Position numbers and translations under genes: made by a program
In this document: positions 1-53,135 of the stretch, in pieces
Position numbering within the stretch: position 1 is the first letter of the stretch
Layout of the letters: each line of letters opens with the position of its first letter
Origin: Tomitella fengzijianii
GTDB lineage: Bacteria > Actinomycetota > Actinomycetes > Mycobacteriales > Mycobacteriaceae
NCBI RefSeq assembly: GCF_007559025.1
Contig: NZ_CP041765.1
Span: 1,174,679 to 1,238,678 of the forward strand
DNA: 64,000 bases
Reading direction: 5' to 3'
The notes under the pieces: generated by a model
The model's database searches: none
Told to the model about the DNA's origin: nothing
Seen by the model: the letters and a program-made list of their open reading frames with translations, nothing else

Positions 1-409
1 CGACTCGGCGGAAACGGTCCACGGGCGAGAAGCCCAGGGCCACCGCGGCCTCGCGCTGGGGCACCGGCACCGCGCCCAGCGAGCCGCGTACCACCTCGGC
101 CCCGTAGGCCCCGTAGTTGAGGCCCAGCGCGAGGATGCCGCACAGCATCGGCGAGATCTCCACGCCGAGCTGGGGCAGGACGTAGAACAGCCAGAACATC
201 TGGACGACAAGGGATGTTCCGCGAAAGAACTCGATCACCACACGGGCCGCGCCGCGGACGACGACCGCGGGCGAGGTGGATGCCAGGCCCAGCGTGAACG
301 CCAGGATGAACATCAGAACCGTACCGCCCGCGGTCAACTCCAGGGTGACTACGAGACCGTGCTGGAAATCCGGAAGGTGGTCGAGTACAGCGTCGAGCTG
401 GTCTCCCAT
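1..409 (-). CDS. ehuC: ectoine/amino-acid ABC transporter permease, EhuC-like (3' end beyond window)
   Basis: This is the inner-membrane permease of a polar amino-acid/ectoine importer, working with the binding protein encoded just upstream. About 136 codons are visible, beginning MGDQLDAVLDHLPDFQHGL. Two hydrophobic segments follow, around residues 18-45 and 60-85. The typical EAA cytoplasmic-loop motif that docks the ATPase (REAAVALGFSPVDRFRRV) lies at the window edge. The ATG at 407-409 sits 5 bases after the binding-protein stop, so the two are co-transcribed. The remaining third of the protein, and presumably the partner permease and ATPase, lie outside the window. The ectoine assignment rests mainly on the neighbour; a general HisM-type amino-acid permease is the alternative. 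Confidence 0.75.
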   Translation of the reverse strand, partial: MGDQLDAVLDHLPDFQHGLVVTLELTAGGTVLMFILAFTLGLASTSPAVVVRGAARVVIEFFRGTSLVVQMFWLFYVLPQLGVEISPMLCGILALGLNYGAYGAEVVRGSLGAVPVPQREAAVALGFSPVDRFRRV

Positions 410-36056: not shown

Positions 36057-36221
36057 TTCGGAGTCGGACGTGCGGCATCGCCGGGTGTGCTCCGGCACAG
36101 ACCTGGCGTGGTCCTTCCTGCTGGGCCCGGGCCGTGGCCGGGTGACGGGCATGCGTCGACCACGCGCATCGATCTGCGCGCGACGCACATCGCGAGGTGG
36201 CCGACGCGGTCGACCGCGGTG

Positions 36222-37748
36222 CTATTCCGGGGGCGGCTGGGCGCCACCGTCGGAGTCGATCCATTGCAGTGACAGCGAGTGTCCGGCCGGCGCCCGGAAC
36301 CGCGGCCGTCTCGTAGCGGCGTCGACCTTGACCGTCCACCCGTGATGGTGCACCGACCGGTGGTGCTCGGTGCACAGACCGACGAGGTTGTCCATATCGG
36401 TGGGGCCGCCGTCCGCCCAGTGGTGCACGTGGTGCGCGACGCACCAGGCGGGCGGGCGGTCGCACCGGGGGAAGGCGCAGCCGTGGTCGCGGGCGGCGAG
36501 TGCGCGGCGCTGCGCCACCGTCGCCAGGCGCCGGCTGCGGCCGACGTTCAACGGCGCGCCGTGGCCGTCGACGCCGACCGGGGTGACCGCGGCGTCGCAA
36601 GCCAGGCGCCGCGCGGCGGAGACCGGCAGGGCGGCGAACCAGTCGGTCATGCCGTGGGGCAGGTTGTCGAACACCTCCCCGTACCGGCCGGCGGAGATCA
36701 GCCCCGCGCGCACGTCGTGATCGGCGTCGGTGTCCGCGAGGTCGCGAAGCCCGATGTGCACCGACAGCGTCGTACCGGTGCCGGCTCCGCCGCCGAAGTC
36801 GTGCATGCCGCCCGCTGCTCCGGCACCGCCGCGCGCAGGTTCCGCTCCGGGCGACTCCTGCGCGTCGGCGGCGGAGCACGTGGTGTGTCGGCGCAGGTAT
36901 TCGGCGAGCCCGTCGGCCCGGCGTTTGGAGGCGCTGCGGCGGTCGCTCGTGCCGTCCGGCTCGGGCCGCGGCGCGGAGTACGGCGACAGGGCGACGCTCA
37001 GCCGCTCGCCGGTCTCGGCGTCGAGATCGCCGCGCAGCACGTAGCGTCCGCCGAGGGTGCGGGACAGGAAAAGGGTGTTGCGGGTGGTGTCGTCGCCGCC
37101 GAAGGTGTCGCTGCGGCGGCGCAGCGGCCAGGGGACGCCCTGCCCGCTCTCATCGCCGCCGGCCGCAGAGCCGCCGTCCCCGCCGCCGGAATCGTCCCCG
37201 CCGCCGCCGTCGGAGTGTTCGCCTGTGGGTCCCGCCTCGGGATCGACGGGCGGCTCGGTGTAGTGCTCACGGATGCCGTCGATCGTGGCGGACAGCTCGG
37301 CCTGCTTGTGGGTGCGCACGAACTCGACGAGCACCGACTCGGCGGTGGCGACCTCGTCGGCGGGCATGTCCGGCGGCGGGTCGTCGAGGAAGTCCATGAT
37401 CAGCGTCGCGGCGGGCTTGGAGATCTGCTCACCCGCGTAGGCCTCGAACACGAGCGGCCTGTCATGCAGACGCCGGGCGAAGGCGACCAGGTTGCGCGCC
37501 AGGTACAGGGACATCGTGGTGCGTTCTGCGACCATGCTCGCGACGTGGGCCGGATTGCCGACGTCGCTGCCGCGTCCCGAAAGCTCGGCGATCAGGCGCA
37601 GCATCTCGACCTCGCGGGCGAACAGCGAGTGGACGGCGTCGTCGAGGCCTTCGACGAGTTCCGGCTCGGTGCGGCGCCACAGGCTCGCGGTCATCGGTGA
37701 GGCCGAAGCCCCGCCCGCGCCGGTGTTGCGGCCCCGCCTGCGCCCCAT
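36222..37748 (-). CDS. 13E12-repeat (DUF222) protein with C-terminal HNH nuclease
   Basis: A 508-residue protein. An N-terminal DUF222 helical region (about 20-160) is followed by Gly/Asp/Ser-rich linkers (about 175-210 and 305-330). A C-terminal HNH domain has zinc cysteines in CAFPRCDRPPAWCVAHHVHHW and catalytic histidines in AHHVHHWADGG...LCTEHH. Such genes are multicopy in mycobacteriales; function is unproven, though some 13E12 genes belong to the SOS regulon. ATG 37748 follows a purine-rich GGGGGGCGG; ATG 37799 or GTG 37838 are longer options, but the upstream SOS-like boxes favour starts at or below 37799. Confidence 0.82.
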   Translation of the reverse strand: MGRRRGRNTGAGGASASPMTASLWRRTEPELVEGLDDAVHSLFAREVEMLRLIAELSGRGSDVGNPAHVASMVAERTTMSLYLARNLVAFARRLHDRPLVFEAYAGEQISKPAATLIMDFLDDPPPDMPADEVATAESVLVEFVRTHKQAELSATIDGIREHYTEPPVDPEAGPTGEHSDGGGGDDSGGGDGGSAAGGDESGQGVPWPLRRRSDTFGGDDTTRNTLFLSRTLGGRYVLRGDLDAETGERLSVALSPYSAPRPEPDGTSDRRSASKRRADGLAEYLRRHTTCSAADAQESPGAEPARGGAGAAGGMHDFGGGAGTGTTLSVHIGLRDLADTDADHDVRAGLISAGRYGEVFDNLPHGMTDWFAALPVSAARRLACDAAVTPVGVDGHGAPLNVGRSRRLATVAQRRALAARDHGCAFPRCDRPPAWCVAHHVHHWADGGPTDMDNLVGLCTEHHRSVHHHGWTVKVDAATRRPRFRAPAGHSLSLQWIDSDGGAQPPPE

Positions 37749-37801
37749 CGTTCCGCCCCCCGGTTTCCTTCTGCAGCCCCCCGCTGCAGAATCCACCATA
37801 C

Positions 37802-37817
37802 GGGAACGATTGTTCGA
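37802..37817 (-). promoter_or_regulatory. imperfect SOS (LexA) box
   Basis: On the minus strand this reads TCGAAC-AATC-GTTCCC, matching 10 of 12 positions of the actinobacterial LexA box TCGAAC-N4-GTTCGA. It lies just upstream of the 13E12/HNH gene. Confidence 0.5.
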
Positions 37818-37842
37818 TGTCATGGAATTGACGAACACAAAA

Positions 37843-37858
37843 TCGAATCGACGTTCGA
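37843..37858. promoter_or_regulatory. SOS (LexA) box
   Basis: TCGAAT-CGAC-GTTCGA matches 11 of 12 defined positions of the LexA consensus, in the gap between the ligase stop (37884) and the 13E12/HNH gene. It is the better of two tandem sites. Confidence 0.62.
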
Positions 37859-37883
37859 TGACGTCCGGGCATTCCGCGACTGC

Positions 37884-39485
37884 TTACATCTCGCGGAAGG
37901 CGAGCTCCTTGCCGTCGCGGACGAACACCCGGTCCGTCACGTCGTGCCCCTCCGCCTGCAGCTGCCGCTTGATCACCTTGCTGGTCGTGGTGCGGGGGAG
38001 GGCCGCGGAGATGCGCACGTACTTCGGCGCCCACTTGGTACCCAGGTCCGGCTGCTCTGCCAGGAACAGGCCGAAGGCGTCCGGTTCGAACTCGACGCCC
38101 GGGTAGAGCTCCACCGCGACCATGACCTGGTCGCCCACCGCCTCGTCGGGAACGGCGTACACCGCGACGTGGTTGAAGGCGGGGAAGCGGGCCACGATGC
38201 GTTCGACCGGGGCGGCCGCGAAGTTCTCGCCGTCCACGCGCAGACGGTCGGAGGTGCGGCCGGCGAAGTACCAGTACCCGTCGGCATCGCGGTACGCCAT
38301 GTCGCCGGACCAGAGGATGCCGTGCCGCACGCGCTCCTCGTCGGCCTCCTGGTTGCCGTAGTAGCCCTCGAACTGGTTCACATTGCGGGTGTTGGCGATC
38401 TCCCCGATCGCCTTCTCCGCGTTGATCAGACGACCCTGCCCGTCGAACTCGGCGCGTGGGCATTCCTCGAGCGTGTCGGGGTCGATGACTGCGGTGCCCT
38501 CGTCGGCCAGCCCCAGCGACCCGGCGGGCATTCCTGGGATCCTGTTGATCCGCATCCCGCCCTCGGAGGTGCCGTACGAGTCGATCACCTCGCACCCGAA
38601 ACGCCGCGAGAACGTGTCGATGTCCTTCTCGTTCGCCTCGTTGCCGAAGGCGATCCGCAGCGGGTTGTCGGCATCGTCGGGGCTCTCGGGGGTGGCCAGG
38701 ATGTAGTTGAGCGGCTTGCCCACGTAGTTGAAGAACGTGGCCTTGTAGCGTCGGATGTCGTCCAGCCACGCCGAGGCGGAGAACTTCCTGCGCAGCGCGA
38801 TGCAGCCGCCGGCGCTGACGGCGGGGGCGATACCGGCCATGATGGCGTTCGAGTGGAACATCGGCATGGCGACGTAGAAGACGTCGTCGGCGCCGAGGCC
38901 CCGGCGCTCCTGCTGCTGGCGGGAGATGGTGCCCAGACGGCCCTGCGAGCAGATCACCGCCTTGGGGGCGGAGGTGGTGCCGGAGGTGAACACGAGCGAG
39001 AAGATCGTCGCCGGATCGGGAAGTGCAAACCCGCCGCCACCGCGTTGTGCGGACAGCAGATCGCCGAATCCGGGCGCGTCGCTGGTGAGGATGCGCTCGG
39101 GCGGGCAGGTGAGTTCGACGCCGTCGAGGAGCGGCCGGTGCGCCTGATCGGTGACGATGAGTTGGATGTCGGTGAAGTCGATGTCACGCACAAGTTCGGC
39201 GCCGCGGCGGGTGGGGTTGATGCCCACGATGGTGGCCCCGGACAGGCCGGCGGCGAGGACCCAGAACAGGTTCTCCGGCGAGTTCTCCATGAGCAGGCCG
39301 ATGTGCCACGGCCCGTCCACCCGCATGCTCCGGGCGAGTTCCGCCCGCGCCTGCGCTTCGGCGACGACCTCGCGCCACGACCATTCGCGGTCCTCGAACC
39401 GCAGGCCGGGGTTGTCGTCCTCCGCACGCGCCGCGATGAGCGACGCGAACGGGTCGGCCTTCGTCCAGATCGTGTCGGTGCGCAT
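37884..39485 (-). CDS. FadD17-like acyl-CoA synthetase
   Basis: A 533-residue paralog of the ligase at 32800-34530. It has LVFTSGTTSAPKAVICSQG (phosphate loop), YGTSEGG, WSGDMAYRDADGYWYFAGR, RLRVDGENFAAAPVERI and TTTSKVIKRQ with the catalytic Lys. FadD17 activates C26 steroid side-chain acids in cholesterol degradation; the same or an analogous role is inferred. The start ATG (39483-39485) shares one base with the SDR stop (TGATG), so expression is coupled. It is the last gene of a two-gene operon; the downstream neighbour on this strand (13E12) is under separate control. Confidence 0.84.
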   Translation of the reverse strand: MRTDTIWTKADPFASLIAARAEDDNPGLRFEDREWSWREVVAEAQARAELARSMRVDGPWHIGLLMENSPENLFWVLAAGLSGATIVGINPTRRGAELVRDIDFTDIQLIVTDQAHRPLLDGVELTCPPERILTSDAPGFGDLLSAQRGGGGFALPDPATIFSLVFTSGTTSAPKAVICSQGRLGTISRQQQERRGLGADDVFYVAMPMFHSNAIMAGIAPAVSAGGCIALRRKFSASAWLDDIRRYKATFFNYVGKPLNYILATPESPDDADNPLRIAFGNEANEKDIDTFSRRFGCEVIDSYGTSEGGMRINRIPGMPAGSLGLADEGTAVIDPDTLEECPRAEFDGQGRLINAEKAIGEIANTRNVNQFEGYYGNQEADEERVRHGILWSGDMAYRDADGYWYFAGRTSDRLRVDGENFAAAPVERIVARFPAFNHVAVYAVPDEAVGDQVMVAVELYPGVEFEPDAFGLFLAEQPDLGTKWAPKYVRISAALPRTTTSKVIKRQLQAEGHDVTDRVFVRDGKELAFREM

Positions 39486-40279
39486 CAGCGGGCCTCCTCG
39501 CCGCGGGTGACCAGGTAGCGGCCCGGGAACTCGCCGCCGCCGTGTACGGCCAGGTCGGTCCCGGTCAGGTAGGACGCGAGGTCGCTGCTGAAGAACAGGC
39601 ACGCCTTCGCCACGTCCTCGGGCACCGCCATCCGCTGCATGGGAATGATCGACGCCACCGCCGCGCCGCCGTCGTCGCCGTAGACCTCGGCGGCGGCCTC
39701 CGTGCGGATGAGGCCGGTGGTGATGTGGTTGACGCGCACCTTCGGCGCCCATTCGAGCGCCAGGGCCTGGCTGAACATGAGCAGGCCCGCCTTGGCGGCC
39801 GAGTACGCGGCCGTGCCGGGCTGGGGGTCGTGCGCGGAGACGCTGCCGATGTTGATGATGGACCCGCCCGAGTCCTGCTGCTGCATGACGGCGTTGGCCG
39901 CCTGCGCCAGGTAGAACGGGGCGAGCATGTTCAGTGCCACGATCTTGTCGACGAATCGGGTGGACACAGTGGCGGAGTCGGCGTCGGGGGAGCCGCCGGC
40001 GTTGTTGACGAGGATGTCCAGGCGGCCGTGGCTCTGCTCGACGTCCTGCACCATCGCCTTGGCGCTCTCCGCGTCGCGCACGTCCAGGGCACGGAACTGC
40101 GCGGTGCGGCCGCCCGCGGCGGGCAGCGATTCCGGTTCGGTCCTGCCGCACACTGTGACCTGGGCCCCGGCGGCCAGCAGCGTCTTTGCGATGACGAAGC
40201 CGATGCCCTTGGTGCCGCCGGTGACGATCGCCACCCGGCCGCTCAGATCGATCGTGCTCGTGGGGTCGGGGGAGCTCAT
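39485..40279 (-). CDS. short-chain dehydrogenase/reductase
   Basis: A 264-residue classical SDR with GGTKGIGFV, NNAGGSPD, catalytic Ser in INIGSVSAHD and YSAAK. Arg in VCGRTEP suggests NADP(H). It heads an operon with the FadD17-like ligase, consistent with a hydroxyacyl- or hydroxysteroid dehydrogenase in the same pathway. ATG 40279 was chosen. It faces another SDR (40474) across a divergent promoter region with a TetR-type palindrome. Confidence 0.84.
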   Translation of the reverse strand: MSSPDPTSTIDLSGRVAIVTGGTKGIGFVIAKTLLAAGAQVTVCGRTEPESLPAAGGRTAQFRALDVRDAESAKAMVQDVEQSHGRLDILVNNAGGSPDADSATVSTRFVDKIVALNMLAPFYLAQAANAVMQQQDSGGSIINIGSVSAHDPQPGTAAYSAAKAGLLMFSQALALEWAPKVRVNHITTGLIRTEAAAEVYGDDGGAAVASIIPMQRMAVPEDVAKACLFFSSDLASYLTGTDLAVHGGGEFPGRYLVTRGEEAR

Positions 40280-40394
40280 GCGGTCCTCGCTTCCGGGCGT
40301 CGGCATGCCCTGCGTGCCTGCGTGTTCTGGTGCGTCGCCGTGCAGAGTGCTGCGGAGCTGTGCGTCGGCGTACTCCGTATATCGGGATGAGGCT

Positions 40395-40412
40395 ACCAAG
40401 CACTTGCTAGGT
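40395..40412. promoter_or_regulatory. TetR-type operator palindrome, ACCAAGCA-CT-TGCTAGGT
   Basis: Two 8-base arms match at 7 of 8 positions around a CT centre. This is the CAAGCA/TGCTTG style of operator common for TetR repressors of acyl-CoA genes in mycobacteriales. It lies centrally between two divergent SDR genes. A second repeat, GGGTA-GCTAA-TACCC (40437-40451), is 22 bases before the plus-strand start. Confidence 0.55.
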
Positions 40413-40473
40413 TGATTACCCTGGTGGTCACTGAACGGGTAGCTAATACCCACCGACACTTGGGAGCGCATCG

Positions 40474-41235
40474 ATGGGCACATTGGACGGCAAGGTCGCG
40501 CTGATCACCGGCGCCGGTCAGGGCGTGGGCGAGGGGATCGCCTTCGCGCTCGCGAAGGAGGGCGCGAGCATCGCGGCGCTGGGACGCACCAAGGCCAAGG
40601 TGGACGAGACGGCGGAGGCCATCCGCGCCCTGGGCGGCACCGCGATCGCGGTCGAGTGCGACGTGGCCAAGGAGGACCAGCTGGCGCCGGCGGTCGACGA
40701 GGTGGTGACCGCTCTCGGCGGGATCGACATCCTCGTCAACAACGCCAACTACAGCGTCCTGGGTCCCATCGCCCAGATCAAGCGGCACCACGTGGAGAAG
40801 GCCCTCGCGGTCGGTCCGCTGGCGGCGCTCTCGCTCATGCAGCTGTGCCATCCGGTGATGAAGGAGCGCGGCGGCGGGGCCGTCATCAATATGGTCACCT
40901 CCGCGGCCGTGCGGTGGGACACGTCGAACTACGGCGGATACGCGGCGGCCAAGGAGGCCCTGCGTTCGCTGACGCGCGCGGCCGCCTCGGAGTGGGGGCG
41001 CGACAACATCCGCGTCAACGCCGTCGCGCCGCACGCGCTGTCGCCCGGCCTCAAGGGCTGGATCGAGCACAACCCCGAGGAGGCCGCGGAGTTCGTCGCC
41101 ACCATTCCGATGGGGCGCATCGGCGAGTGCGAGGAGGACATCGGCCGCGCCGTCGCATTCCTCGTCGGCCCCGACGCGCGCTACCTCACGGGTGCGACGA
41201 TCCCCCTCGACGGGGGGCAGGCCCGCTGGGTGTAG
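40474..41235 (+). CDS. short-chain dehydrogenase/reductase
   Basis: A 253-residue SDR with GAGQGVGEG, NNANYS in place of NNAG, Ser in NMVTSAAVRW, and YAAAK. Arg in ALGRTKAK suggests NADP(H). Its PHALSPGLKGWIEHNPEEAAEF region resembles the ICPLAATEGVAHWMEQHPETAAK region of the SDR at 18159-18929, so the two are close paralogs. It is a single gene ending in a strong hairpin and divergent from the SDR-ligase operon. The substrate is unknown. Confidence 0.84.
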   Translation: MGTLDGKVALITGAGQGVGEGIAFALAKEGASIAALGRTKAKVDETAEAIRALGGTAIAVECDVAKEDQLAPAVDEVVTALGGIDILVNNANYSVLGPIAQIKRHHVEKALAVGPLAALSLMQLCHPVMKERGGGAVINMVTSAAVRWDTSNYGGYAAAKEALRSLTRAAASEWGRDNIRVNAVAPHALSPGLKGWIEHNPEEAAEFVATIPMGRIGECEEDIGRAVAFLVGPDARYLTGATIPLDGGQARWV

Positions 41236-41254
41236 TCGGCCCGCAGCACCTCAG

Positions 41255-41293
41255 ACGGCACCGGCCGGCCCTGATGGGGCCGGCCGGTGCCGT
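41255..41293. terminator. bidirectional hairpin terminator, 17-bp stem
   Basis: A perfect 17-base-pair stem with a 5-base loop lies between a plus-strand SDR and a minus-strand lipoprotein gene; the latter's stop is 4 bases away. Confidence 0.75.
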
Positions 41294-41296
41294 TCG

Positions 41297-41974
41297 TCAT
41301 CGCAGCGACAGCGCGACGTCCAGCGGTGTCCCGTCGATGTCGACATCCACCGTGTCCACATTGGGAAACTGCAGCGCCGGCTCGGTGAGCTGCGCGCGGA
41401 CCCGGGGGATGTCGCATTCGCCGCCCATCGTCAGGTCGCCGGTGAGGTGGACCGTCGCATGGCCGTCGGAGATCGTCGCGGACTGGTACGTGAGGTCGGA
41501 CGCCGCAAGCGCGTTGTACAGCCCTGACGCGCCGTAATCGCGTTCGCGGGTCCCGAGCTGGGCCCGGTACACCTCACCGAGCGGTGCGATCGTCGTCGTG
41601 GTGACAGTGACCGGAACTGCGCTGTCGCCGCAGCCCACCGGCATTCCCGATGCGCCGCCGTCGCCCAACGCGATGAATGTCAGCGAGTGCTGGTGCGACG
41701 CGGGGACGCCCGCCGAGGTCCCCGAGTCGGGGGCGCCCGTCGGCGCGGCCTCGGCATCGGGCTCGGCGGATGCGGCCGGGCCGCCCGCCGCCGGCGACTG
41801 CGCGGCAGGGGACCGGGTCGCCGGAGGAGTCGCCGCTGAAGCCGCCGGCGAAGCCGTGCCCGGGGCGGGTGCTGCGGTGGACGCGCTCGGGGAGGAGCCG
41901 CCGCAGGCCGCGGCAGCCAGCGGCAGTACGGCGGCGGCCGCAACGGCGGCGATGGTGCGTGACGTGCGGTGCAT
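41297..41974 (-). CDS. GerMN-domain lipoprotein
   Basis: A 225-residue secreted lipoprotein. The signal peptide ends in LAAAAC (about Cys24). A Pro/Ala/Ser-rich linker spans about 25-100. The C-terminal ~125 residues form a GerMN-like domain (TTTIAPLGEVYRAQLG, LTYQSATISDGHATVHLTGD, VDIDGTPLDVALSLR). GerMN domains occur in cell-envelope proteins such as LpqB. This copy stands alone, without MtrAB. GAGGAG lies 8 bases before ATG 41974. It is likely anchored to the outer face of the membrane; function is unknown. Confidence 0.75.
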   Translation of the reverse strand: MHRTSRTIAAVAAAAVLPLAAAACGGSSPSASTAAPAPGTASPAASAATPPATRSPAAQSPAAGGPAASAEPDAEAAPTGAPDSGTSAGVPASHQHSLTFIALGDGGASGMPVGCGDSAVPVTVTTTTIAPLGEVYRAQLGTRERDYGASGLYNALAASDLTYQSATISDGHATVHLTGDLTMGGECDIPRVRAQLTEPALQFPNVDTVDVDIDGTPLDVALSLR

Positions 41975-42184
41975 GGCTCGGCTCCTCGATACCTTGTGAC
42001 CGTGACATCGTGTGCAGCTGCGGCAGCGTTGCGCGCTACGGCCTCATCCCGGCCCGCGCATTGTTCGCTGCGCCCTCTTCGGCCCCGTTCTCGTATGACT
42101 GCCGCCAGGTGGCGAGTGACGCTCAGCAACCTTTCGACCACAGGTTGGATCTATCCGCTTTGCTCGCACCTGCCGGTCGCCACG

Positions 42185-43299
42185 ATGTTGTGCGGGGTGG
42201 AACTGTCGCGTGGCCGGCTGGCGGAGGCGGTCATGGCCCGTTGCCGCAACGACTTCGTCGAGCCGCCCGCCCCGGCTAAGGTCCGGCGCCTGGTGGGCAA
42301 GGCGGTCCGGGACTTCGATACGCGGTTCTGCCGTATTACCGTGGACCACGCGACCCGCTCGCGGCTGGAGGACCTGGTCGCGGGCAGCAAGGACGGCGAC
42401 GAGGAGCCGACTGAAGACCAGGCGCCGGCCGGGGGGTGGGGCCGGTCGCTCTTCACCGAGCTCAAGGCCGACCCGGGAGCCCCGGGGCTGGAAGGCGTGT
42501 TCGCGGAGGTGGACAAGCTCCAGCGGGTACGGAAGCCGGATCTTTGGGCCGACCTGTTCGCGGACGTGTCGGAGAAGAAGGTCGACAAGGAGCTGACCGG
42601 CGAGCTGAAGAAGGTGCGGGGCGCGGAGGCGATGATGCTCCGGGTCGCCGAGGCGGCCTTGTCTGAGCCCTCCGGCACGGTCCGCGAGGTGATCTACCCC
42701 GTCGTCGGCGGGGAGAAGACGCTCAAGGTCCTCGCCGCAGAGGCCGCGGCGAACGAGGCCAAGTACAAGGCGCGTATCCGCGCCGTGCTGCGATCGGTGT
42801 ACTCGGCGCGCTGACGGCGGATGCGCACCGCGCTGCTGAAGGCGTTGACGCTCAAGTGCAACAACACCGCCTACCGGCCGGTGATGAACGCCATCGACCT
42901 GCTCCAGCGGTACCTGGAGCAGCCGCTGAAGGAGGGTGCGTTCTCGAACTCCGACCTGTTCTCCGGCAAGGACGGTGACCTGACGGGTGCGAACAAGGAG
43001 AGCCAGGAGGTCCCGATGCTTGCTCGGCACCTTTTGCAGAGCAGTCTCGTGCATGTCGACCTTGCTCGTTCGTTCAGCAGGTTCTGGCCGATCCGAAGTG
43101 GGCGGACACGCTCACCGAGACGGACCGGCGGGGGCTGTCTCCGCCGTTCTGGGCCCATTTGAACCCGTGTGGAAGATTCGAACCGGATATCAACAGCCGT
43201 CTCGACCCGGGCCTTGCGGCCACCGGAGCCACGATGCCCGGCCCGCGCGCTCCGCAGGTCGAGGCAGCGGCAGTTCCGGCACGGGAAGCTGTGTCATAG
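42185..43299 (+). pseudogene. Tn3-family transposase remnant (tnpA)
   Basis: Pieces of a Tn3-type transposase in order. N-terminal domain sequence runs from about 42185 to 42811 (MARCRNDFVEPPAPAKVRRL, GEKTLKVLAAEA, AVLRSVYSAR). An in-frame TGA (42812-42814) is followed in the same frame by RRMRTALLKALTLKCNNTAYRPVMNAIDLLQRYLEQP. The catalytic DDE core is missing. The C-terminus resumes around 42960 (GKDGDLTGANKESQEV, HLLQSSLVHV), loses frame near 43058, and continues in another frame as QQVLADPKWADTLTETDRRG to a TAG at 43297. The damage is one nonsense codon, an internal deletion and two frameshifts. The left boundary is uncertain. No terminal inverted repeats or resolvase were seen. Confidence 0.75.
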
Positions 43300-43322
43300 C
43301 CCCGGAGCGACTCTTGTCGTGA

Positions 43323-43342
43323 CCGGGTGAGCCGTCACCCGG
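43323..43342. terminator. hairpin CCGGGTGA-GCCG-TCACCCGG
   Basis: An 8-base-pair stem with a 4-base loop lies between the transposase remnant and the leader ORF. It could insulate the cassette from upstream transcription. Confidence 0.45.
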
Positions 43343-43417
43343 GGCTCGACAGTCGAATCATGTGATATGCTGCCGAAGGACTTTTCGGCTTGTGACTATT
43401 CGAGGGAGGTGAGGTTA

Positions 43418-43486
43418 ATGATCGCGGCAGAGACCGCTGCTGTCGGCAGCGCCCGGACCATCCTCACGTCCCGGGTCCCGGTCTGA
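43418..43486 (+). CDS. 22-residue leader peptide upstream of the RsgA-like gene
   Basis: A short ORF (ATG 43418, TGA 43484-43486) with a near-perfect Shine-Dalgarno, GGAGGTGA at 43405-43412, 5 bases upstream. That is stronger than the ribosome site of almost any other gene in the window. The peptide starts MIAAETAAVG and ends RTILTSRVPV. The GTGAGG in its ribosome site can pair with CCTCAC at 43462-43467 inside the ORF. It ends 91 bases before a TTG-initiated gene with a weak site. This layout is that of attenuation leaders of ribosome-targeting antibiotic-resistance genes. Its regulatory role is inferred; the ORF and ribosome site are directly visible. Confidence 0.68.
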   Translation: MIAAETAAVGSARTILTSRVPV

Positions 43487-43577
43487 ATCCGTTTCCCTCC
43501 ATCCTGCTGTGAGCGTGCTTGCTCGCGCGGTGGTCGTGTGACGTCCTGACGGGGCCCCCATCCAAAGGTCTCTCAAG

Positions 43578-44693
43578 TTGTCATCCTTCTTCTCCACCTC
43601 TTCCACCTCTAGCTCGTCGTCCGGGTCGGCCGGTTCAACGCTGGCCGAATTCGGGTGGGACGATGCGTTCGACCGCGCCTTCGCCGCGCATCGCTCCGCC
43701 GGTCTGGTGCCGGCCAGGATCGTGCGTGTGGACCGTGGTCAGTGCGACGTCGCCACCGAGTCCGGCCCGGTACGGGCAGGCTCCTCGGCGGTCGCCTCAC
43801 CGGATCCCGTCCATTCCCCGTGCACTGGCGACTGGGCCGCCCTGCGCACCGGCTCCGATCCGCAGCTGGTGGCCCTGTTGCCGCGCCGTAGCGCCATCGT
43901 GCGCTCCGGCGCCGACCGCTCCTCGCGCGGGCAGGCACTCGCTGCCAACATCGACACCGCGGTCGTCGCCGTCTCGCTCGCGGACCCGCTCAACCCGGGC
44001 CGGATCGAGCGGCTGCTCGCGTTGGCGTGGGACAGCGGCGCCCGGCCAGTGCTCGCCCTCACCAAGCAGGACCTTGCGGACCCGTCCGGCGCCGACGCCG
44101 TGCAGGCCGAGGTCGCCGCTCTGGCGCCGGGCGTGGACACCGTGGTCACCAGCGCCGCCACCGGTGTGGGCCTGGACGTCCTGACCGCGGTGGCGTACGG
44201 CACCACGGTGCTGCTCGGCCCCTCGGGCGCGGGCAAGTCCACGTTGGCCAACGCGCTACTCGGCGACGAAGTCCTGGCGACCGGCGCGGTGCGGGCCCAG
44301 GACGGCAAGGGTCGGCACACCACCGTTCACCGCGAACTCCTCCTGCTGCCCGGCGGGGGCGTCCTCATCGACACCCCGGGGCTGCGCGGGATCGGCCTGC
44401 AGGACGCCGCCGACGGTCTGGAGCAGGTCTTCGCCGAGATCGAGCAGCTCGCTCAGGAGTGCGCTTTCCGGGACTGCGGCCACGGCGCCGAGCCCGACTG
44501 CGCGGTCCAGCGGGCGATCCACACCGGTCAGCTGAGCGAACGCCGCCTGGACAGCTACCGCAAGCTGCTGCGCGAGAGCTCCTGGGCGGCCTCCCGCAGC
44601 GACGCCCGCATGCGGGCCGGCCGCACCGACCAGCAGAAATCCATCACCCGGCATCTGCGCGCGACCTATCGCTTCCGCGAGCGTCGGCAGTGA
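43578..44693 (+). CDS. ribosome small-subunit-dependent GTPase, RsgA/YjeQ-like (extra copy)
   Basis: A 371-residue circularly permuted GTPase. It has an N-terminal OB-like domain, G4 TKQD (162-165), G5 TSAA (191-194), G1 GPSGAGKS (214-221), the switch KGRHTTVHRE (244-253), G3 DTPG (265-268) and a zinc module C295, C300, H302, C308. RsgA checks 30S maturation; some relatives are recruited for drug tolerance. The TTG start gives an unusual Ser/Thr-rich first 20 residues. Mycobacteriales carry a housekeeping rsgA near aroA, so this copy, next to a Tn3 remnant and behind a leader peptide, is probably acquired. A GNAT gene follows. Confidence 0.85.
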   Translation: MSSFFSTSSTSSSSSGSAGSTLAEFGWDDAFDRAFAAHRSAGLVPARIVRVDRGQCDVATESGPVRAGSSAVASPDPVHSPCTGDWAALRTGSDPQLVALLPRRSAIVRSGADRSSRGQALAANIDTAVVAVSLADPLNPGRIERLLALAWDSGARPVLALTKQDLADPSGADAVQAEVAALAPGVDTVVTSAATGVGLDVLTAVAYGTTVLLGPSGAGKSTLANALLGDEVLATGAVRAQDGKGRHTTVHRELLLLPGGGVLIDTPGLRGIGLQDAADGLEQVFAEIEQLAQECAFRDCGHGAEPDCAVQRAIHTGQLSERRLDSYRKLLRESSWAASRSDARMRAGRTDQQKSITRHLRATYRFRERRQ

Positions 44694-44761
44694 CGGCGTA
44701 CGACCGTGCCACTCAGACCTCCACCCCTCTGTGCCTCTACGAAACGGACCGGCCTCTCCTC

Positions 44762-45277
44762 ATGAACAACCCCCTCACCTGGACCACCCGCCCCGAAACC
44801 GCCGACGACATCGCCGCGATCCGTGCGGTCAACCTCGCCGCGTTCCCGACCCCGCTGGAAGCCGACCTGGTCGAGGCCCTGCGCACCGACCCGGCCTGGA
44901 TTGACGGCCTCTCCCTGGTCGCACAGACCCCGGACGGCACCATCGCAGGCTTCGCGCTGCTGACCCGCTGCCACATCGACGACAGCCCCGCCCTCGTGCT
45001 GGGCCCGTGCGCGGTGCTTCCCGCCTACCAGAAGACGGGAGCAGGATCCGCCGCAGTCCGCGCGGCCCTCGACGCCGCCCGCGCCCAGGGCGAGAATCTC
45101 GTCACCTGCTTGGGGCACCCCGGCTACTACCCGCGCTTCGGGTTCACCCCGGCCTCACGCCACGGCATCCGCCCCACCTTCGAGGTGCCCGACGAGGCCA
45201 TGATGGTCCTCGCCCTGGATGTCAATGCTCCCGCCCCGAAGGGCACCATCCACTACCCGGCACCCTTCGGAGTCTGA
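44762..45277 (+). CDS. GNAT-family N-acetyltransferase (YhbS-like)
   Basis: A 171-residue acetyltransferase. Acetyl-CoA motif A is LGPCAVLPAYQKTGAGSAAVRAAL (Q/R-x-x-G-x-G/A variant QKTGAG), followed by LVTCLGHPGYYPRFGFTPAS, typical of YhbS-type proteins. A GTG at 44690 that overlaps the RsgA stop as GTGA would add 24 residues; ATG 44762 puts the start right at the domain. In either case it is in one operon with the RsgA-like gene. It could acetylate a small molecule, perhaps an antibiotic, or a protein; the substrate is unknown. Confidence 0.82.
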   Translation: MNNPLTWTTRPETADDIAAIRAVNLAAFPTPLEADLVEALRTDPAWIDGLSLVAQTPDGTIAGFALLTRCHIDDSPALVLGPCAVLPAYQKTGAGSAAVRAALDAARAQGENLVTCLGHPGYYPRFGFTPASRHGIRPTFEVPDEAMMVLALDVNAPAPKGTIHYPAPFGV

Positions 45278-45292
45278 CGGACCCGCATCCGG

Positions 45293-45324
45293 CCGGCCCA
45301 TCGCACACGACGGCGATGGGCCGG
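45293..45324 (+). terminator. hairpin terminator after the GNAT gene
   Basis: A 12-base-pair stem (CCGGCCCATCGC with its complement) and 8-base loop begin 15 bases after the stop. The remainder of the gap to 45637 has no recognisable gene. Confidence 0.65.
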
Positions 45325-45524
45325 TGCCGGCCGTGGCGTCCCGCGCGAGTCTCGGCACTCCACCTTCTCTCAAACAGTCCTTTGCGCGAGCAAGATCAAA
45401 CAGAACCCGACGGAGACCGCCGGGAAGCCGATCTCGTCGAATGCCACCCGCCCACGCGGGCGAGCAGCCGCGCCACCGCCCCGTTGCCATCGCCACCCGC
45501 AGTCCCCGCGACGAATGCTCGGTA

Positions 45525-45580
45525 TCGACATAGTAGGTAGTCCTAGTATATTCTCCATGTAGCGGAGGTCACACCTCCGC
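45525..45580 (+). promoter_or_regulatory. promoter and small palindrome of the mms operon
   Basis: TCGACA (45525-45530) and TATATT (45547-45552) are 16 bases apart in the only AT-rich stretch of the gap. They are followed by a GCGGAGGT-CAC-ACCTCCGC palindrome (45562-45580) that could be an operator or 5' hairpin. The mmsA start is 57 bases further on. Confidence 0.5.
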
Positions 45581-45637
45581 CCGGCAGCGTCGGCCGTGTT
45601 CGCCACGGCCGCATCGGGGAAGGCAGGGAACGGCATC

Positions 45638-47140
45638 ATGGTTCACGAACTCGCGCATTTCATCGGCGGACGTCGGGTGCCCGGCGCAAGCGGGGAGTTC
45701 GCCGACGTCTACAACCCGAGCGAGGGCGCGGTGCAGGCCCGGGTGCCGTTGGCGAGCGTCGACGAGGTGTCCGCAGCCGTCGGGGACGCCGCTGCGGCGC
45801 AGAAGGAGTGGGCGACGTGGAACCCACAGCGGCGCGCGCGGGTGATGATGAGGTTCGCGCAGCTGGTGCGCGACGATGCCGACGAGCTTGCGCGGCTGCT
45901 GGCCTCGGAGCACGGCAAGACCATCGCCGACGCCCACGGCGACGTGGCGCGCGGGCTCGACGTCGTCGAGTTCGCGATGGGTATCCCGCACCTGCTCAAG
46001 GGCGAGTACACCGAGGGTGCGGGCACCGGGATCGACGTCTATTCGGTGCGCCAGCCGCTCGGCGTGGTCGCCGGGATCACGCCGTTCAACTTCCCGGCCA
46101 TGATCCCGCTGTGGAAGGCCGCGCCGGCGATCGCCTGCGGCAACGCGTTCATCCTCAAGCCCTCGGAACGCGACCCCTCCGTGCCACTGCGGCTCGCTGA
46201 GCTGTTCATCGAGGCCGGGCTGCCCGCGGGGATCTTCAACGTGGTCAACGGCGACAAGGTGGCGGTGGACGCCATCCTGGAGGATCCGCGCGTCAAGGCG
46301 GTGGGCTTCGTCGGTTCGTCGGACATCGCCGAGTACATCTACTCCGGCGCGACCTCGCGGGGCAAGCGCGCACAGTGCTTCGGCGGCGCCAAGAACCACA
46401 TGATCATCATGCCGGACGCCGACCTCGACGACGTGGCCGACGCGCTGGTCGGCGCCGCCTACGGCTCTGCAGGTGAGCGCTGCATGGCGCTGTCCGTCGC
46501 GGTGCCCGTCGGCCAGGAGACCGCGGACCGGTTGCGGGAGAAGCTCATCGCCCGCATGGACAAGCTCCGGATCGGGGCATTCGACGATCCGGACGTGGAC
46601 TACGGCCCGCTCGTCAGCGCCGCCGCCGTCGACCGTGTGCGCGACTACATCCAGGCAGGGATCGACTCCGGCGCGGAGCTGGTGGTCGACGGTCGCGAGA
46701 TCACCGTCGCCGGGCACGAGAACGGCTTCTTCCTGGGCAGCACGCTGTTCGACAACGTCACCAAGGACATGTCGATCTACCGGGAGGAGATCTTCGGCCC
46801 GGTGCTGTGCATCGTCCGCGCGCACGACTACGAGGAGGCGCTGGATCTGCCGTCGAGCCACGAGTACGGCAACGGGGTGTCGATCTTCACCCGCGACGGC
46901 GACACCGCGCGCAACTTCGCGAGCCGCGTGGACACCGGCATGGTCGGCGTCAACGTGCCGATCCCGGTGCCGGTCGCTTACCACACCTTCGGCGGGTGGA
47001 AGCGCTCCGGATTCGGCGACCTCAATCAGCATGGGCCGGACTCCATCCGCTTCTACACCAAGACCAAGACGGTCACGCAGCGTTGGCAGACCGGCTTCAA
47101 GGAGAACGCCGACCACTTCGTGCTGCCGGTGATGGAATGA
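45638..47140 (+). CDS. mmsA: methylmalonate-semialdehyde dehydrogenase (acylating)
   Basis: A 500-residue CoA-acylating aldehyde dehydrogenase. It has [42 protein letters not shown], catalytic Cys282 in [10 protein letters not shown], and the C-terminal [18 protein letters not shown]. It converts methylmalonate semialdehyde to propionyl-CoA in valine (and myo-inositol or thymine) catabolism. ATG 45638 gives the usual family length; the frame extends 14 codons upstream without a better start. It leads the operon mmsA, acyl-CoA dehydrogenase, mmsB, enoyl-CoA hydratase, with an ATGA overlap to the next gene. The mycobacterial Rv0753c-Rv0751c cluster has the same order. Confidence 0.92.
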
Positions 47141-48300
47141 CGGTGCAGTCGGCGCCGGCGGCGGGTGTGTTCGCGCTCAGCGAGGACGAACGCGCGATCA
47201 TCGACACCGCACGGGATTTCGCATCCGGAAACGTCGCGCCGCATGCCCTGGACTGGGACCGCGACAAGCACTTCCCGGTGGATGTCATGCGCACGGGCGC
47301 CGCGATGGGCCTCGGCGGCATCTACGTCCGTGAGGACGTGGGCGGTTCCGGCCTGCGGCGGGTCGATGCGGCGCGCATCTTCACCGAGATCGCGGCCGCG
47401 TGCCCCGCCACCGCGGGCTTCATCTCAATCCACAACATGGTGGCGTGGATGATCGACTCCTACGGGAACGACGAGCAGCGCCGGCGTTGGCTGCCGGGGC
47501 TCTGTGCGATGGACCTGCTGGGCAGCTACTGCCTCACCGAACCGGGTGCCGGTTCCGACGCGGCGGCGCTGCGCACGCGTGCGGTGCGCGAGGGCGATCA
47601 CTACGTCCTCGACGGCGTGAAACAGTTCATCTCCGGTGCGGGGGTCTCCGACGTCTACATCGTCATGGCCCGCACCGGGGAGGCCGGGCCGCGGGGGATC
47701 TCCGCCTTCGTCGTCGAGAAGGGCGCAGACGGGCTGAGCTTCGGCGCGAACGAGGCCAAGATGGGGTGGAACTGCCAGCCCACCCGGCAGGTCATCCTGG
47801 AGGGCGTCCGCGTTCCGGCGGCGAGCCTCCTGGGCGGAGAGGGCGCGGGCTTCGCCATCGCGATGAACGGGCTCAACGGCGGGCGCATCAACATCGCGGC
47901 CTGCTCGCTCGGCGGCGCCCGGGCGGCGTTCGAGAAGTCCGCCGCGTACCTGCGCGAGCGCGAGGCCTTCGGTGCGCTGCTCAGCGGCTCGCCGGTGTTG
48001 CAGGCCGAGCTTGCCGACATGGCCACCGGCCTCGAAGCGGCCCGGCTGATGCTGTGGCGCGCAGCGGACGCGCTCGATCACGACGCGCCGGACAAGGTGA
48101 CTCTGTGCGCGATGGCCAAGAGGTACGTGACCGACACGGGCTTCGAGATCGCGAACAAGGCGCTGCAGCTGCACGGCGGCTACGGCTATCTGAGCGAGTA
48201 CGGGCTGGAGAAGATCGTGCGCGACCTGCGCGTACATCAGATTCTGGAGGGAACCAACGAGATCATGCGGATGATCGTCGGCAGGACGGTGGCGTCGTGA
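47137..48300 (+). CDS. fadE9: acyl-CoA dehydrogenase, isobutyryl-CoA type (FadE9)
   Basis: A 387-residue flavoprotein with [71 protein letters not shown] and the EGTNEIMRMI end. Placed between mmsA and mmsB, as FadE9 is in mycobacteria, it should oxidise isobutyryl-CoA to methacrylyl-CoA in valine breakdown. The ATG overlaps the mmsA stop (ATGA). A 55-base spacer follows before mmsB. Confidence 0.88.
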   Translation: MTVQSAPAAGVFALSEDERAIIDTARDFASGNVAPHALDWDRDKHFPVDVMRTGAAMGLGGIYVREDVGGSGLRRVDAARIFTEIAAACPATAGFISIHNMVAWMIDSYGNDEQRRRWLPGLCAMDLLGSYCLTEPGAGSDAAALRTRAVREGDHYVLDGVKQFISGAGVSDVYIVMARTGEAGPRGISAFVVEKGADGLSFGANEAKMGWNCQPTRQVILEGVRVPAASLLGGEGAGFAIAMNGLNGGRINIAACSLGGARAAFEKSAAYLREREAFGALLSGSPVLQAELADMATGLEAARLMLWRAADALDHDAPDKVTLCAMAKRYVTDTGFEIANKALQLHGGYGYLSEYGLEKIVRDLRVHQILEGTNEIMRMIVGRTVAS

Positions 48301-48355
48301 CCGTGGGCGGCGACCCCTCACCCGCGGCCGTGCGCGCCGCTGAAAGGACTGACTC

Positions 48356-49249
48356 GTGAGCACAATCGCATTTCTGGGCCTGGGGCACATGGGCGGCCCC
48401 ATGGCGGCCAACCTCGTGCAGGCCGGCCACACCGTCCGCGGCTTCGACCCGGTGCCCGCCGCGCAGGAGGCGGCCGCGTCCGCGGGAGTGGGGATGGAGT
48501 CCGCCGCGGCCGACGCGGTCGCCGGTGCGGACATCGTGATCACCATGCTGCCCAACGGGGCTCTGGTGCTGGAGCTGTACGCCGAGATCCTTCCGGCGGC
48601 CGGGCCCGGGACTCTGTTCATCGACAGCTCCACGATCGACGTGGCCGACGCGCGGAATGCGCACGACCAGGCGGTGGCCGCAGGACACGCCATGATCGAC
48701 GCGCCGGTGTCCGGCGGCGTGGTGGGCGCCGAGGCGGGCACGCTCGCGTTCATGGTCGGCGGTGACGAGGCCACGTTCGAGCGCGCCAAGCCGGTTCTGG
48801 AGGACATGGGCCGCAAGATCGTGCATTGCGGCGCGCCCGGCAACGGCCAGGCGGCGAAGCTGTGCAACAACATGATCCTCGCGATCTCCATGGACGCGGT
48901 CAGCGAGGCTTTCGTCCTGGGCGAGGCACTGGGGCTGTCGCATCAGGCGCTGTACGACGTCGCGTCCAACGCGTCCGGCCAATGCTGGGCGCTCACGACG
49001 AACTGCCCTGTGCCCGGCCCGGTGCCGGGAAGCCCCGCCAACCGCGACTACGAGGCGGGTTTCGCGGTGGGACTCATGGCCAAGGACCTGGGGCTGGCGG
49101 CGAACGCGCTGCGCGAGCACGGCGTCGCGGGGGAGCTGGGCCTGCGCATGGCCGAGCGCTACGCGGAGATGCGCGACGCGGGCCGCGCCGCCAACGACTT
49201 CTCCGACATCATCAACGACATCCGGGACAAGTCCAGGAAGGGAAACTGA
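48356..49249 (+). CDS. mmsB: 3-hydroxyisobutyrate dehydrogenase
   Basis: A 297-residue NAD-dependent beta-hydroxyacid dehydrogenase. The Rossmann motif [15 protein letters not shown] is N-terminal, with the substrate signature [36 protein letters not shown] containing the catalytic Lys, and KDLGLA. It oxidises 3-hydroxyisobutyrate to methylmalonate semialdehyde, feeding MmsA. The GTG start (48356) is preceded by GAAAGGA. Four bases separate it from the enoyl-CoA hydratase gene. Confidence 0.92.
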
Positions 49250-49253
49250 ACCA

Positions 49254-50030
49254 GTGGGCGATTACGAGACCATCCTCCTCGACCGCAGCGGCCGCGTCGG
49301 TCTGATCACGCTGAACCGGCCGAAGGCCCTCAACGCGCTCAACTCCGCGGTCATGCGCGAGGTGATCGACGCGGTGGCGGGTCTGGACGCGGACCCGGGC
49401 ATCGGCGCGATCGTCGTCACCGGATCGGAGAAGGCCTTCGCGGCGGGTGCGGACATCAAGGAGATGGCGGACCTGGGCTTCGCCGACGTGCACGGCAGGG
49501 AGACCTTCTCCGGGTGGGACGCGCTGACGCGGGCGCGCACCCCGATCATCGCGGCCGTCGCCGGCTACGCGCTGGGCGGCGGGTGCGAGCTGGCGATGAT
49601 GTGCGACATGATCATCGCCGCCGACACCGCGAAGTTCGGCCAGCCGGAGATCACCCTCGGCGTCATCCCCGGCATGGGCGGCTCGCAGCGGCTGACCCGC
49701 GCCGTCGGCAAGGCGAAGGCGATGGACCTGTGCCTGACGGGGCGGCAGATGGGCGCCGACGAGGCGGAGCGCGCCGGCCTGGTGGCGCGCGTGGTGCCGG
49801 CGGCCGAGTTGCTCGACACCGCGATGGCGGCGGCGGGCACGATTGCGGGCATGGCGAAGACGACGGCGATCATGGCGAAGGACGCGGTGAACGCGGCCTT
49901 CGAGACCACCCTGGCGGAGGGGGTGAAGACCGAACGCCGGATCTTCTACTCCACCTTCGCGACCGACGATCAGACGGAGGGGATGGCCGCGTTCATCGCC
50001 AAGCGCAAGCCGGAGTTCAACAAGAGCTGA
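49254..50030 (+). CDS. enoyl-CoA hydratase (crotonase family)
   Basis: A 258-residue crotonase. The oxyanion-hole segments are [11 protein letters not shown] and [15 protein letters not shown]. Catalytic glutamates are in [18 protein letters not shown]. It matches short-chain EchA8-type hydratases. In this operon it most likely hydrates methacrylyl-CoA to 3-hydroxyisobutyryl-CoA. A separate 3-hydroxyisobutyryl-CoA hydrolase is not seen, so that step must be elsewhere. GTG 49254 follows the mmsB stop by four bases. It is convergent with the carbonic anhydrase gene 30 bases away, and no terminator hairpin is evident there. Confidence 0.87.
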
Positions 50031-50060
50031 GCCAGTAGCCGGCACCCGGCCCGGTCGTCA

Positions 50061-50585
50061 TCATTCACCGGCGGGGAGGGCGCCGTCGGCGTGGCGCCGG
50101 GCCAGGTCGCGGTAGGTGCGGGGGTTGTTGTCCACCCACCAGACGGCGCTGCCGCTGAGCGGCCCGCGCACCGTCGCCGGTGTGCCCGTGGCGACGGTTT
50201 CCGCGGGGATCCGTGTGCCGGGCGTGACGACGGCGCCCGCGGCGACCAGCGCCCGGTCGCCGATCACGGCCCCGTCCTGCACCACCGCGCCGTTGCCGAT
50301 GAGCGCCTGCGCGCCGACCTCGGCGCCGTGCACCACGCACGAGTGGCCGACGGTGGCGCCCGGGCCGATCACCGTGGCCTCCTCGCCTCCGTGCACCACC
50401 GAGCAGTCCTGCACGTTCGCGCCGGCCCGCACGATGATCGGGCCGAAGTCGGCGCGCAGTACGGCGTTGTACCAGACGGATGCACCCTCCTCGACGTGCA
50501 CGTCGCCGACGAGCGTGGCGGTGGGGGCGATCCACGCGCCGGGATGGACCTCGGGCGAGGCGCCCTCGAAGCTGAACAGCGGCAT
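50061..50585 (-). CDS. gamma-carbonic anhydrase-like hexapeptide protein
   Basis: A 174-residue left-handed beta-helix protein (repeats such as GPGATVG, GAEVGAQALIGNGAVV, GDRALVAAGAVV). The candidate zinc histidines are in VVHGGEE and VGHSCVVHG, arranged as in CamH/YrdA-type gamma-carbonic anhydrases. It may hydrate CO2 or act as a metal-binding trimer. ATG 50585 begins directly at MPLFSFEG, the normal family start; the longer open frame upstream lacks support. It stands alone. Confidence 0.85.
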   Translation of the reverse strand: MPLFSFEGASPEVHPGAWIAPTATLVGDVHVEEGASVWYNAVLRADFGPIIVRAGANVQDCSVVHGGEEATVIGPGATVGHSCVVHGAEVGAQALIGNGAVVQDGAVIGDRALVAAGAVVTPGTRIPAETVATGTPATVRGPLSGSAVWWVDNNPRTYRDLARRHADGALPAGE

Positions 50586-50764
50586 GTGCGGAATGTAGCG
50601 CGTCCGCCGCGGATCGGCACGGACCCTGCCGCGGCGACGACCCTGCCGCGGCGACGACCCTGCTCCGGCGGCGCGCGGATTGCGGTGGGAAAGCCGGTTC
50701 ACGGCTGCCGCGCAGCGCGGCGGGGCTACTGTGACGATACTGTTCCGCAGCCGGCGAGGTGGCC

Positions 50765-51211
50765 ATGTCGAGAGCGCAGCATCCAGCCCTGGTGCGCGGC
50801 GCCGTCTGCGCGGCGGTCGCGGCGTCGGCGGCGGCTCTCGCCGTGGCCGCGGCGGCCAACGCCGCGGCGACGCCGCCGTCCGGTGTCATTCCTGTGCCCC
50901 TCGGCACGGTGAATATCGGCGGCACCGATCTCACCGCGCGCGTCATCGTGTTCTCTCCGAGCGGCACGACGGGGTGGCACACGCACGACGGCGATGTGCC
51001 CGGGATCGTCACCGGCGGATTCATCACCCGCACGCTCGAGGATTGCTCCGTCTACACGGCCGGCCCCGGCGACCCGATGTCCGGCGGTGGCGCCGCGCAC
51101 GTCGGCGCCAACACCGGCGACACCACTGCGTTCCTGTGGAGCCTGTACATCGACCAGGCCGGGGATCCCCCGGCGATCGACGCGCCTGCGGCGGACTGCC
51201 CGGGGCGATAG
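50765..51211 (+). CDS. secreted cupin-domain protein
   Basis: A 148-residue protein with an Ala-rich signal peptide (about 1-37, cleavage near ANAAA) and no lipobox, so probably released or wall-associated. The rest is a single small cupin barrel: GWHTHDGDVPGIVTGG carries the metal histidines, and two cysteines (in EDCSVY and ADCPGR) could form a disulphide. GAGG lies 6 bases before ATG 50765. Function is unknown. It precedes a secreted glycosidase by 82 bases, possibly on the same transcript. Confidence 0.72.
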   Translation: MSRAQHPALVRGAVCAAVAASAAALAVAAAANAAATPPSGVIPVPLGTVNIGGTDLTARVIVFSPSGTTGWHTHDGDVPGIVTGGFITRTLEDCSVYTAGPGDPMSGGGAAHVGANTGDTTAFLWSLYIDQAGDPPAIDAPAADCPGR

Positions 51212-51293
51212 CACGGAGCCGGCCCCCGGAGCCGTAGCCGCAGGGTTCCGCGGAACCGCGCCGAACGCTCGTCCAGGGTGCTAGCTTCCAGGC

Positions 51294-52595: not shown

Positions 52596-52643
52596 CGGCA
52601 CGGGACCGACGATTCGGGGACTGACGGCACCTGGAACGGCGGA

Positions 52644-53084: not shown

Positions 53085-53135
53085 CTCGACAGATTGTCAT
53101 ACCGGCAGGCGCCACCGGGTGGCACCATCGGTTCC

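Follow-up and report, generated by a model that had tools for sequence, protein, structure and literature searches.

The 64,000 nucleotides of the Tomitella fengzijianii genome analysed here (the window; coordinates are window positions unless stated otherwise) contain a 22-codon leader open reading frame (ORF), followed by genes for a second paralog of the ribosome GTPase RsgA (RsgA2, set apart by this name from the housekeeping RsgA) and for a GNAT acetyltransferase. We consider it probable, judging from sequence comparisons, that the three form a translation-stress cassette of a kind that is under leader control in Actinomycetes, and that this copy, associated with Tn3, was acquired horizontally. 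The cassette is best read as a mobile member of a leader-attenuated set of translation-stress genes: the leader switch would probably turn the genes on in response to a block of protein synthesis, and the best reading of its mode of action is attenuation that may depend on the position or availability of ribosomes on the leader.

The leader ORF (43418..43486, plus strand), supported by sequence and conservation, runs from an ATG start to a TGA stop and encodes the peptide MIAAETAAVGSARTILTSRVPV; its Shine-Dalgarno sequence (SD), GGAGGTGA, lies at 43405-43412. RsgA2 is a circularly permuted RsgA/YjeQ-type GTPase paralog of 371 amino acids with a TTG start (43578..44693, plus strand), preceded by the SD AAAGG (43564..43568, plus strand), which was located by alignment with relatives. 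The GNAT protein has 171 amino acids (44762..45277, plus strand; Pfam PF00583, E 3.8e-8). Its ATG start at 44762 agrees with homologues and leaves a gap of 68 nucleotides after rsgA; an alternative in-frame GTG start overlaps the rsgA stop. An earlier note on this DNA, made from the letters alone, had described a 22-codon ORF with a near-perfect ribosome site and an extra RsgA-type GTPase with a TTG start, and both are present. The acetyltransferase gene that it called coupled is there too, but with the likely start at 44762 the coupling is only loose.

RsgA2 belongs to the RsgA/YjeQ GTPase family by family score, motifs and fold. It reaches 151.9 bits against Pfam PF03193 (RsgA_GTPase; cut-off 30, E 2e-44) and 142.4 bits against TIGR00157 (cut-off 100), and falls below two narrower NCBIfam RsgA models (156 and 117.6 bits versus cut-offs of 360 and 483). 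The sequences TK.D (162-165), GPSGAGKS (214-221), KGRH (244-247) and DTPG (265-268) are present and residues C295, C300, H302 and C308 are kept; we take these to be the G motifs and the zinc finger, respectively. In a structure search, the top 15 PDB matches were all RsgA/YjeQ/YloQ (best E 5.9e-24). Fold, motifs and zinc finger are common to RsgA2 and the housekeeping RsgA/YjeQ proteins (PDB 6h4d, 7boi, 5no2). Unlike these, RsgA2 falls into a separate tree group, is accessory and leader-linked, and has a long predicted C-terminal helix (50 residues, 321-370; mean predicted local distance difference test score of the model 81.3).

A housekeeping-type rsgA, 40% identical to RsgA2, is found elsewhere in the window's own genome (G000; contig position C1:3027118-3027993). 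RsgA matches occur in 99 of the 101 genomes searched, G000 included, and the RsgA2 type is present in 40 among the matches listed (E <1e-60). When a tree is built from 49 sequences (midpoint root; four long branches flagged), the RsgA2 type makes up one side of a 100/99 branch, with 38 rows, and the housekeeping rows are opposite; by this position, RsgA2 is not an orthologue of the housekeeping RsgA. Eleven leader-bearing rows form one group (99/96), and the window RsgA2 and its counterpart from the congener G002 fall into different groups. RsgA-like proteins with about 40-46% identity are also borne on plasmids of Roseomonas, Brevibacillus, Deinococcus, Stenotrophomonas and Lysinibacillus, and plasmid-borne RsgA is therefore not solely actinobacterial.

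The segment that carries the cassette (41697..45518; edges approximate, right edge 45518-45633) has no counterpart at the same site in G003 and G004, the two of four congeners compared there, and by this comparison it is an insertion. Both are collinear with the window on both flanks, with no cassette in between: G003 aligns to 33817-41690 and 45633-53314, with about 480 bp separating the blocks, and G004 likewise. Two of the five genomes in the genus have RsgA2 (among the three that lack it, one is 81% complete). In G002 it occupies another site, beside a gene that we take, from its protein sequence, to be der, and the stretch compared shows no further similarity to the window. With two congeners empty at the site and a second, housekeeping-type rsgA in the genome, the case that the earlier note would have counted against its reading, this being the only rsgA, at a conserved chromosomal site, fails.

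The Tn3 remains that the same note had seen beside the cassette are fragments of a Tn3-family transposase (42002..43210, plus strand), recognised by a profile match and by DNA identity to plasmid Tn3; an intact Tn3 transposase was not found at the locus. Positions 42002-42811 match NF033527 (E 8.6e-11, profile 112-232 of 954, 40.6 bits versus a cut-off of 500), pieces within 42189-42947 are 83% identical to the Tn3 transposase region of a Streptomyces plasmid, and 42945-43210 shares 70% identity with the 3' part of a Tn3 transposase annotated in L138, a plasmid locus of Streptomyces sp. NBC_00842. This plasmid and Nonomuraea gerenzanensis (68%, with leader and GNAT) are the closest matches in the plasmid collection. 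The annotation of L138 gives the order Tn3 transposase, rsgA directly downstream, a methyltransferase-acetyltransferase fusion, a hypothetical gene on the opposite strand and a recombinase, and our scan places the same leader before rsgA. Carriage by phages was rejected: there is no relative among the viral_contigs pattern matches, and the 29 phage records that match are all below 60% identity, with none covering 80% of the query.

A short ORF with a strong SD is found upstream at 17 of 30 RsgA2 loci (the window's own included) versus 20 of 974 control windows. A covariance model was built from 14 leaders, the window's leader among them, so its own E of 1e-16 is no independent test. In a sample of the phylum, the model matches 8 of 396 genomes (one false, one the window and one the model member G041); the false match, L147 (E 9.6e-4), has no leader-like ORF and was discarded. 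Of the 401 genomes in the window's own family, 45 have a match (34 are new, 11 contributed to the model), spread over 11 of 31 genera; in another family, f18, it is 84 of 394 genomes (87 matches). The leader is conserved at homologous loci; a lack of such conservation is what the earlier note would have held against its own reading.

The leader keeps varied company. We examined 55 leaders (52 model matches plus L012, L137 and L138): for 42 of them, the locus contains an rsgA2 match (only partial for L157 and L158), and 24 of these also show a GNAT gene, the loci being short; the remainder precede GNAT without rsgA (8), a methyltransferase-GNAT fusion (1) or methyltransferases (4). Among 30 family-f18 loci from the 87 matches, 20 have GNAT only, three rsgA and GNAT, two methyltransferase and GNAT, two rsgA and methyltransferase, one rsgA alone, one methyltransferase alone and one none of these. 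In L204, L209 and L211 of this family the leader is kept with just the beginning of rsgA2, which looks truncated; GNAT is still downstream in two of them. Three methyltransferase sequences were scanned and are above cut-off only for general class I domains. Taking the RsgA2 loci as starting point, an adjacent GNAT homologue is present at 7 of 30, the window's own counted. RsgA2 lineages of Streptomyces, the family f12 and Arthrobacter (L057, L060, L139, L021-L023, L068) have short leader ORFs with strong SDs of their own that are unlike the one described here. No description of the leader or of the cassette was found within the open-licence papers searched; the WblC link of an RsgA paralog is already known.

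Nucleotides rather than the peptide appear to be selected in the leader, because the three codon positions vary about equally: the entropies of positions 1-3 across 46 distinct 22-codon sequences are 0.751, 0.833 and 0.784 bits (nearness to 22 codons partly guided the choice of starts in this set, and L146 and L188 are thereby misplaced). Selection at the peptide level is unsupported by entropies that are so nearly equal. Five elements of the leader RNA, all on the plus strand, may bear on its control: element A, the leader SD (43404..43414), is predicted to pair with element C, C-rich codons complementary to it (43462..43472); element B (43436..43450) is a hairpin within the leader ORF; and element D, the end of the leader ORF (43473..43483), is the predicted pairing partner of element E (43548..43557), immediately 5' of the rsgA SD. 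The predicted fold of the window leader has a z of -2.51.

The main tests covered 43 loci (12 of the 55 leaders were omitted as they had no recognised gene start), 29 of which are outside the 14 loci where the D:E pairing was first noticed and served as a held-out set. Cognate pairing energies were compared with those of shuffled sequences and with 2000 permutations within genera. D:E has a cognate energy of -21.94 versus -16.17 kcal/mol for shuffles, beats shuffles in 42 of 43 loci and is equalled by 12 of 2000 permutations; in the held-out set, the figures are 29/29 and 50/2000. The element B hairpin beats shuffles in 36/43 loci (held-out 24/29) and no permutation is as good in either set. 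A:C, tested as leader SD against codons 13-20, beats shuffles in 35/43. Three control pairings do so in 14, 19 and 21 of 43 loci, with 1824, 1670 and 76 of 2000 permutations as good. Pairing of the leader SD with the rsgA ribosome site was rejected for lack of cognate support within genera (1180/2000).

D:E is found in rsgA and methyltransferase cassettes, the end of the leader pairing just 5' of the next gene. In the 26 of 38 GNAT-only loci with a GNAT start 30-260 nucleotides past the leader, A:C beats shuffles in 25/26 and no permutation is as good; the element B hairpin is unsupported there (13/26, 504/2000). It holds in the ten family-f18 loci with a recognised gene start (7/10, 27/2000; the other 20 of 30 were omitted). 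The shared sensor may thus be the leader ORF plus the pairing of its SD, with a downstream part that differs gene by gene. Many GNAT-only cassettes (L142, L214, L216, L219 and others) share a segment of their own before the start, like CACGAACACCACCATGAAACGGATC, without leader-end pairing.

The promoters of about half of the whiB7-positive relatives' cassettes resemble those of a known stress regulon. The published WblC motif (GAAAWY-N3-TKGMNN-16..19-TANNNT) fits, with at most two mismatches, 22 of 45 whiB7-positive loci, five of them with zero mismatches, and none of 3733 background windows, which overlap and are mostly coding; in this the relatives' cassette promoters are like those of the WblC regulon. 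It fits none of three whiB7-negative loci and neither of two plasmid-collection loci (whiB7 status of these two not assessed). A count of AT-boxes (37/44 whiB7-positive versus 0/3; one-sided Fisher 0.0074) is indicative only, the loci being related, and as that scan rewards AT-rich boxes, the scan for the published motif is the fairer test. Of 101 relatives, 86 carry whiB7, as do 38 of 39 additional genomes that have the leader; all five genomes of the window's genus lack it. In Streptomyces coelicolor, the RsgA/EngC paralog pair SCO6149 and SCO5211 has been linked to WblC in a study of the WblC/WhiB7 regulon (PMC7157823). The likeness to our cassette, an RsgA paralog tied to translation-inhibitor stress, is one of description, and the accessible part of that report mentions no leader attenuator in front of rsgA; the leader is a feature of the cassette. 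The earlier note's statement that no RsgA of this type was known has to be corrected accordingly, since a paralog of this general type was already published there.

Translational attenuation via D:E is the reading that we favour for the rsgA2 of the window, and it might work as follows. In the folded leader, A:C would hide the leader's own SD in the C-rich codons, and D:E would hide the region before rsgA2 in the end of the leader. A translation inhibitor that slows or stalls ribosomes on the leader would keep A:C and D:E from forming, and RsgA2, and the GNAT protein behind it, would then be made. RsgA2 may act on 30S subunits that are stressed or carry a drug, at the place known to be bound by RsgA, and the substrate acetylated by the GNAT protein may be the drug or else a component of the ribosome. 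The window organism has no whiB7; there, control would depend on the leader together with some further promoter input.

Several results weigh against this reading. A:C has no significant cognate support within genera (189/2000 for the 43 loci; held-out 24/29, 725/2000). The control pairing A with D reached 76/2000, and codons 13-20 beat shuffles against the rsgA SD in 37/43 loci with no cognate support (892/2000), on which ground that pairing was rejected; because these two do well, beating shuffles alone is weak evidence. A CCTT/AAGG hairpin that would sequester the SD of rsgA was likewise rejected (1701/2000 permutations as good). D:E is absent from the 26 GNAT-only loci (8/26, 492/2000) and weak in the ten family-f18 loci (8/10, 160/2000), where A:C beats shuffles in 10/10 without being cognate-specific (1561/2000). 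As A:C and D:E are both present at once in the predicted fold, a mutually exclusive switch is not demonstrated. A good WblC motif was not found at 23 of the 45 whiB7-positive loci or at any of the five family-f18 loci tested, and the window promoter, with a putative TG-extended -10 element TATGCT (43366..43371, plus strand) whose position agrees with -10-like elements in relatives, has no WblC/WhiB7 box (best fit five mismatches). The best whiB7 match in G000 has an E of 1.5e-9 versus 1.6e-30 or lower in the 86 positive genomes, and none of its four WhiB proteins has an RGRP tail. Unlike the genes of the WblC regulon, the window cassette thus has neither box nor whiB7, and by these two features it would not be a regulon member.

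A serious rival, which we regard as somewhat unlikely, is Rho-dependent transcription attenuation: translated, exposed C-rich leader codons would recruit Rho, a stalled ribosome or the leader SD would mask them, and the downstream pairing would be secondary. The model is the uORF (upstream ORF) attenuator of DUF1127 genes in S. meliloti, which senses translation inhibition or ribosome availability; in the portion of PMC12218461 that we could consult, C-rich uORF codons are proposed to be masked by pairing with the ribosome site of the uORF. The window leader shares this pairing of an ORF's ribosome site with its own C-rich codons, and A:C is strong in GNAT-only cassettes, where D:E is absent. 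There is also more C than G from codon 13 to 30 nucleotides past the stop (median skew 0.24 versus a background of 0.00, standard deviation 0.15), but the skew is modest, with 284 of 4923 background windows as high. The S. meliloti system belongs to another phylum and another gene and is Rho-dependent on the data of PMC12218461, as far as available; window-type leaders differ from it in that, before rsgA and methyltransferases, the end of the leader also pairs with the next gene, and this specific D:E pairing is left unexplained by Rho.

RsgA is a 30S assembly and checkpoint GTPase, and a second rival, unlikely in our view, holds that RsgA2 is a factor for assembly stress (cold, ribosome assembly defects) and not for resistance, the leader merely sensing a shortage of ribosomes. 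The tested GTPase, zinc-finger and fold features of RsgA are retained, and conservation at the nucleotide level suits a leader that reads ribosome availability. The accessory distribution, the GNAT and methyltransferase company and the WblC-type promoters point to antibiotics instead. We link RsgA2 to translation inhibitors because of the leader, the promoters of relatives, the gene company and the S. coelicolor report; the promoter motifs in relatives and the WblC link of the S. coelicolor paralog pair suggest a role under such inhibitors. For direct protection of ribosomes by RsgA2, we see about even chances.

Sensing of a specific drug by the nascent peptide is very unlikely. The erm and cat translational attenuators are well-known cases of a strong-SD short ORF before a ribosome-related resistance gene, and the cassette resembles them in this layout; in the ErmC type, the leader peptide itself would stall the ribosome with one drug class and open the mRNA. 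With the SD as the only guide to the start, 47 of the 55 leaders have exactly 22 codons, and their C-terminal sequence can be recognised, both of which speak for such sensing, but residue 10 is free to vary (R, C, G, H, S) and the near-equal variation of the codon positions (0.75, 0.83, 0.78) points to selection on nucleotides: unlike erm and cat leaders, this one is conserved in nucleotides and not as a peptide. Of the leader control proposed in the earlier note, the conserved short ORF with its strong SD therefore stands, and the look of a peptide-specific drug sensor, without excess third-position variation, is not borne out; its overall interpretation is partly supported. Most improbable is a functionless, degenerate remnant of a dead Tn3 element: Tn3 is in pieces and some family-f18 rsgA2 copies look truncated, but the window has both genes at full length and with their conserved motifs, and nothing is missing from the leader or its pairing partners.

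The remaining features lie at the margins of the cassette. A palindrome with an 8-bp stem (43323..43342) has the Tn3 remains on one side and the promoter on the other, and a hairpin with a 13-bp stem follows the GNAT gene (about 45292..45325). These are the bounding hairpins of the earlier note; they exist, though neither scores as an intrinsic terminator. The best Rfam match, Guanidine-III (43306-43362, minus strand), was rejected with 18.4 bits versus a gathering score of 36 and is probably caused by the palindrome. At the left edge of the insertion there is a lipoprotein-like ORF with a Germane domain (41297-41974, minus strand).

A more far-reaching reading, which we put forward tentatively, takes the leader as an RNA sensor of ribosome status that is portable and independent of the gene behind it; the sensor would be read via the pairing of the leader's ribosome site, not via the peptide. 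Recombination would have placed it before RsgA2, GNAT and several unlike methyltransferases across actinomycete orders, and together these genes may make up an undescribed programme that protects against one class of inhibitors of the 30S subunit; in the window's genus, the leader would work without WhiB7. With one leader common to several unlike genes, a single reporter could reveal both the signal that is sensed and the drug class that is answered. If the favoured reading of the cassette is true, its mobile, leader-controlled paralog would put RsgA forward as a candidate factor for ribosome protection, comparable to HflX or TetM.

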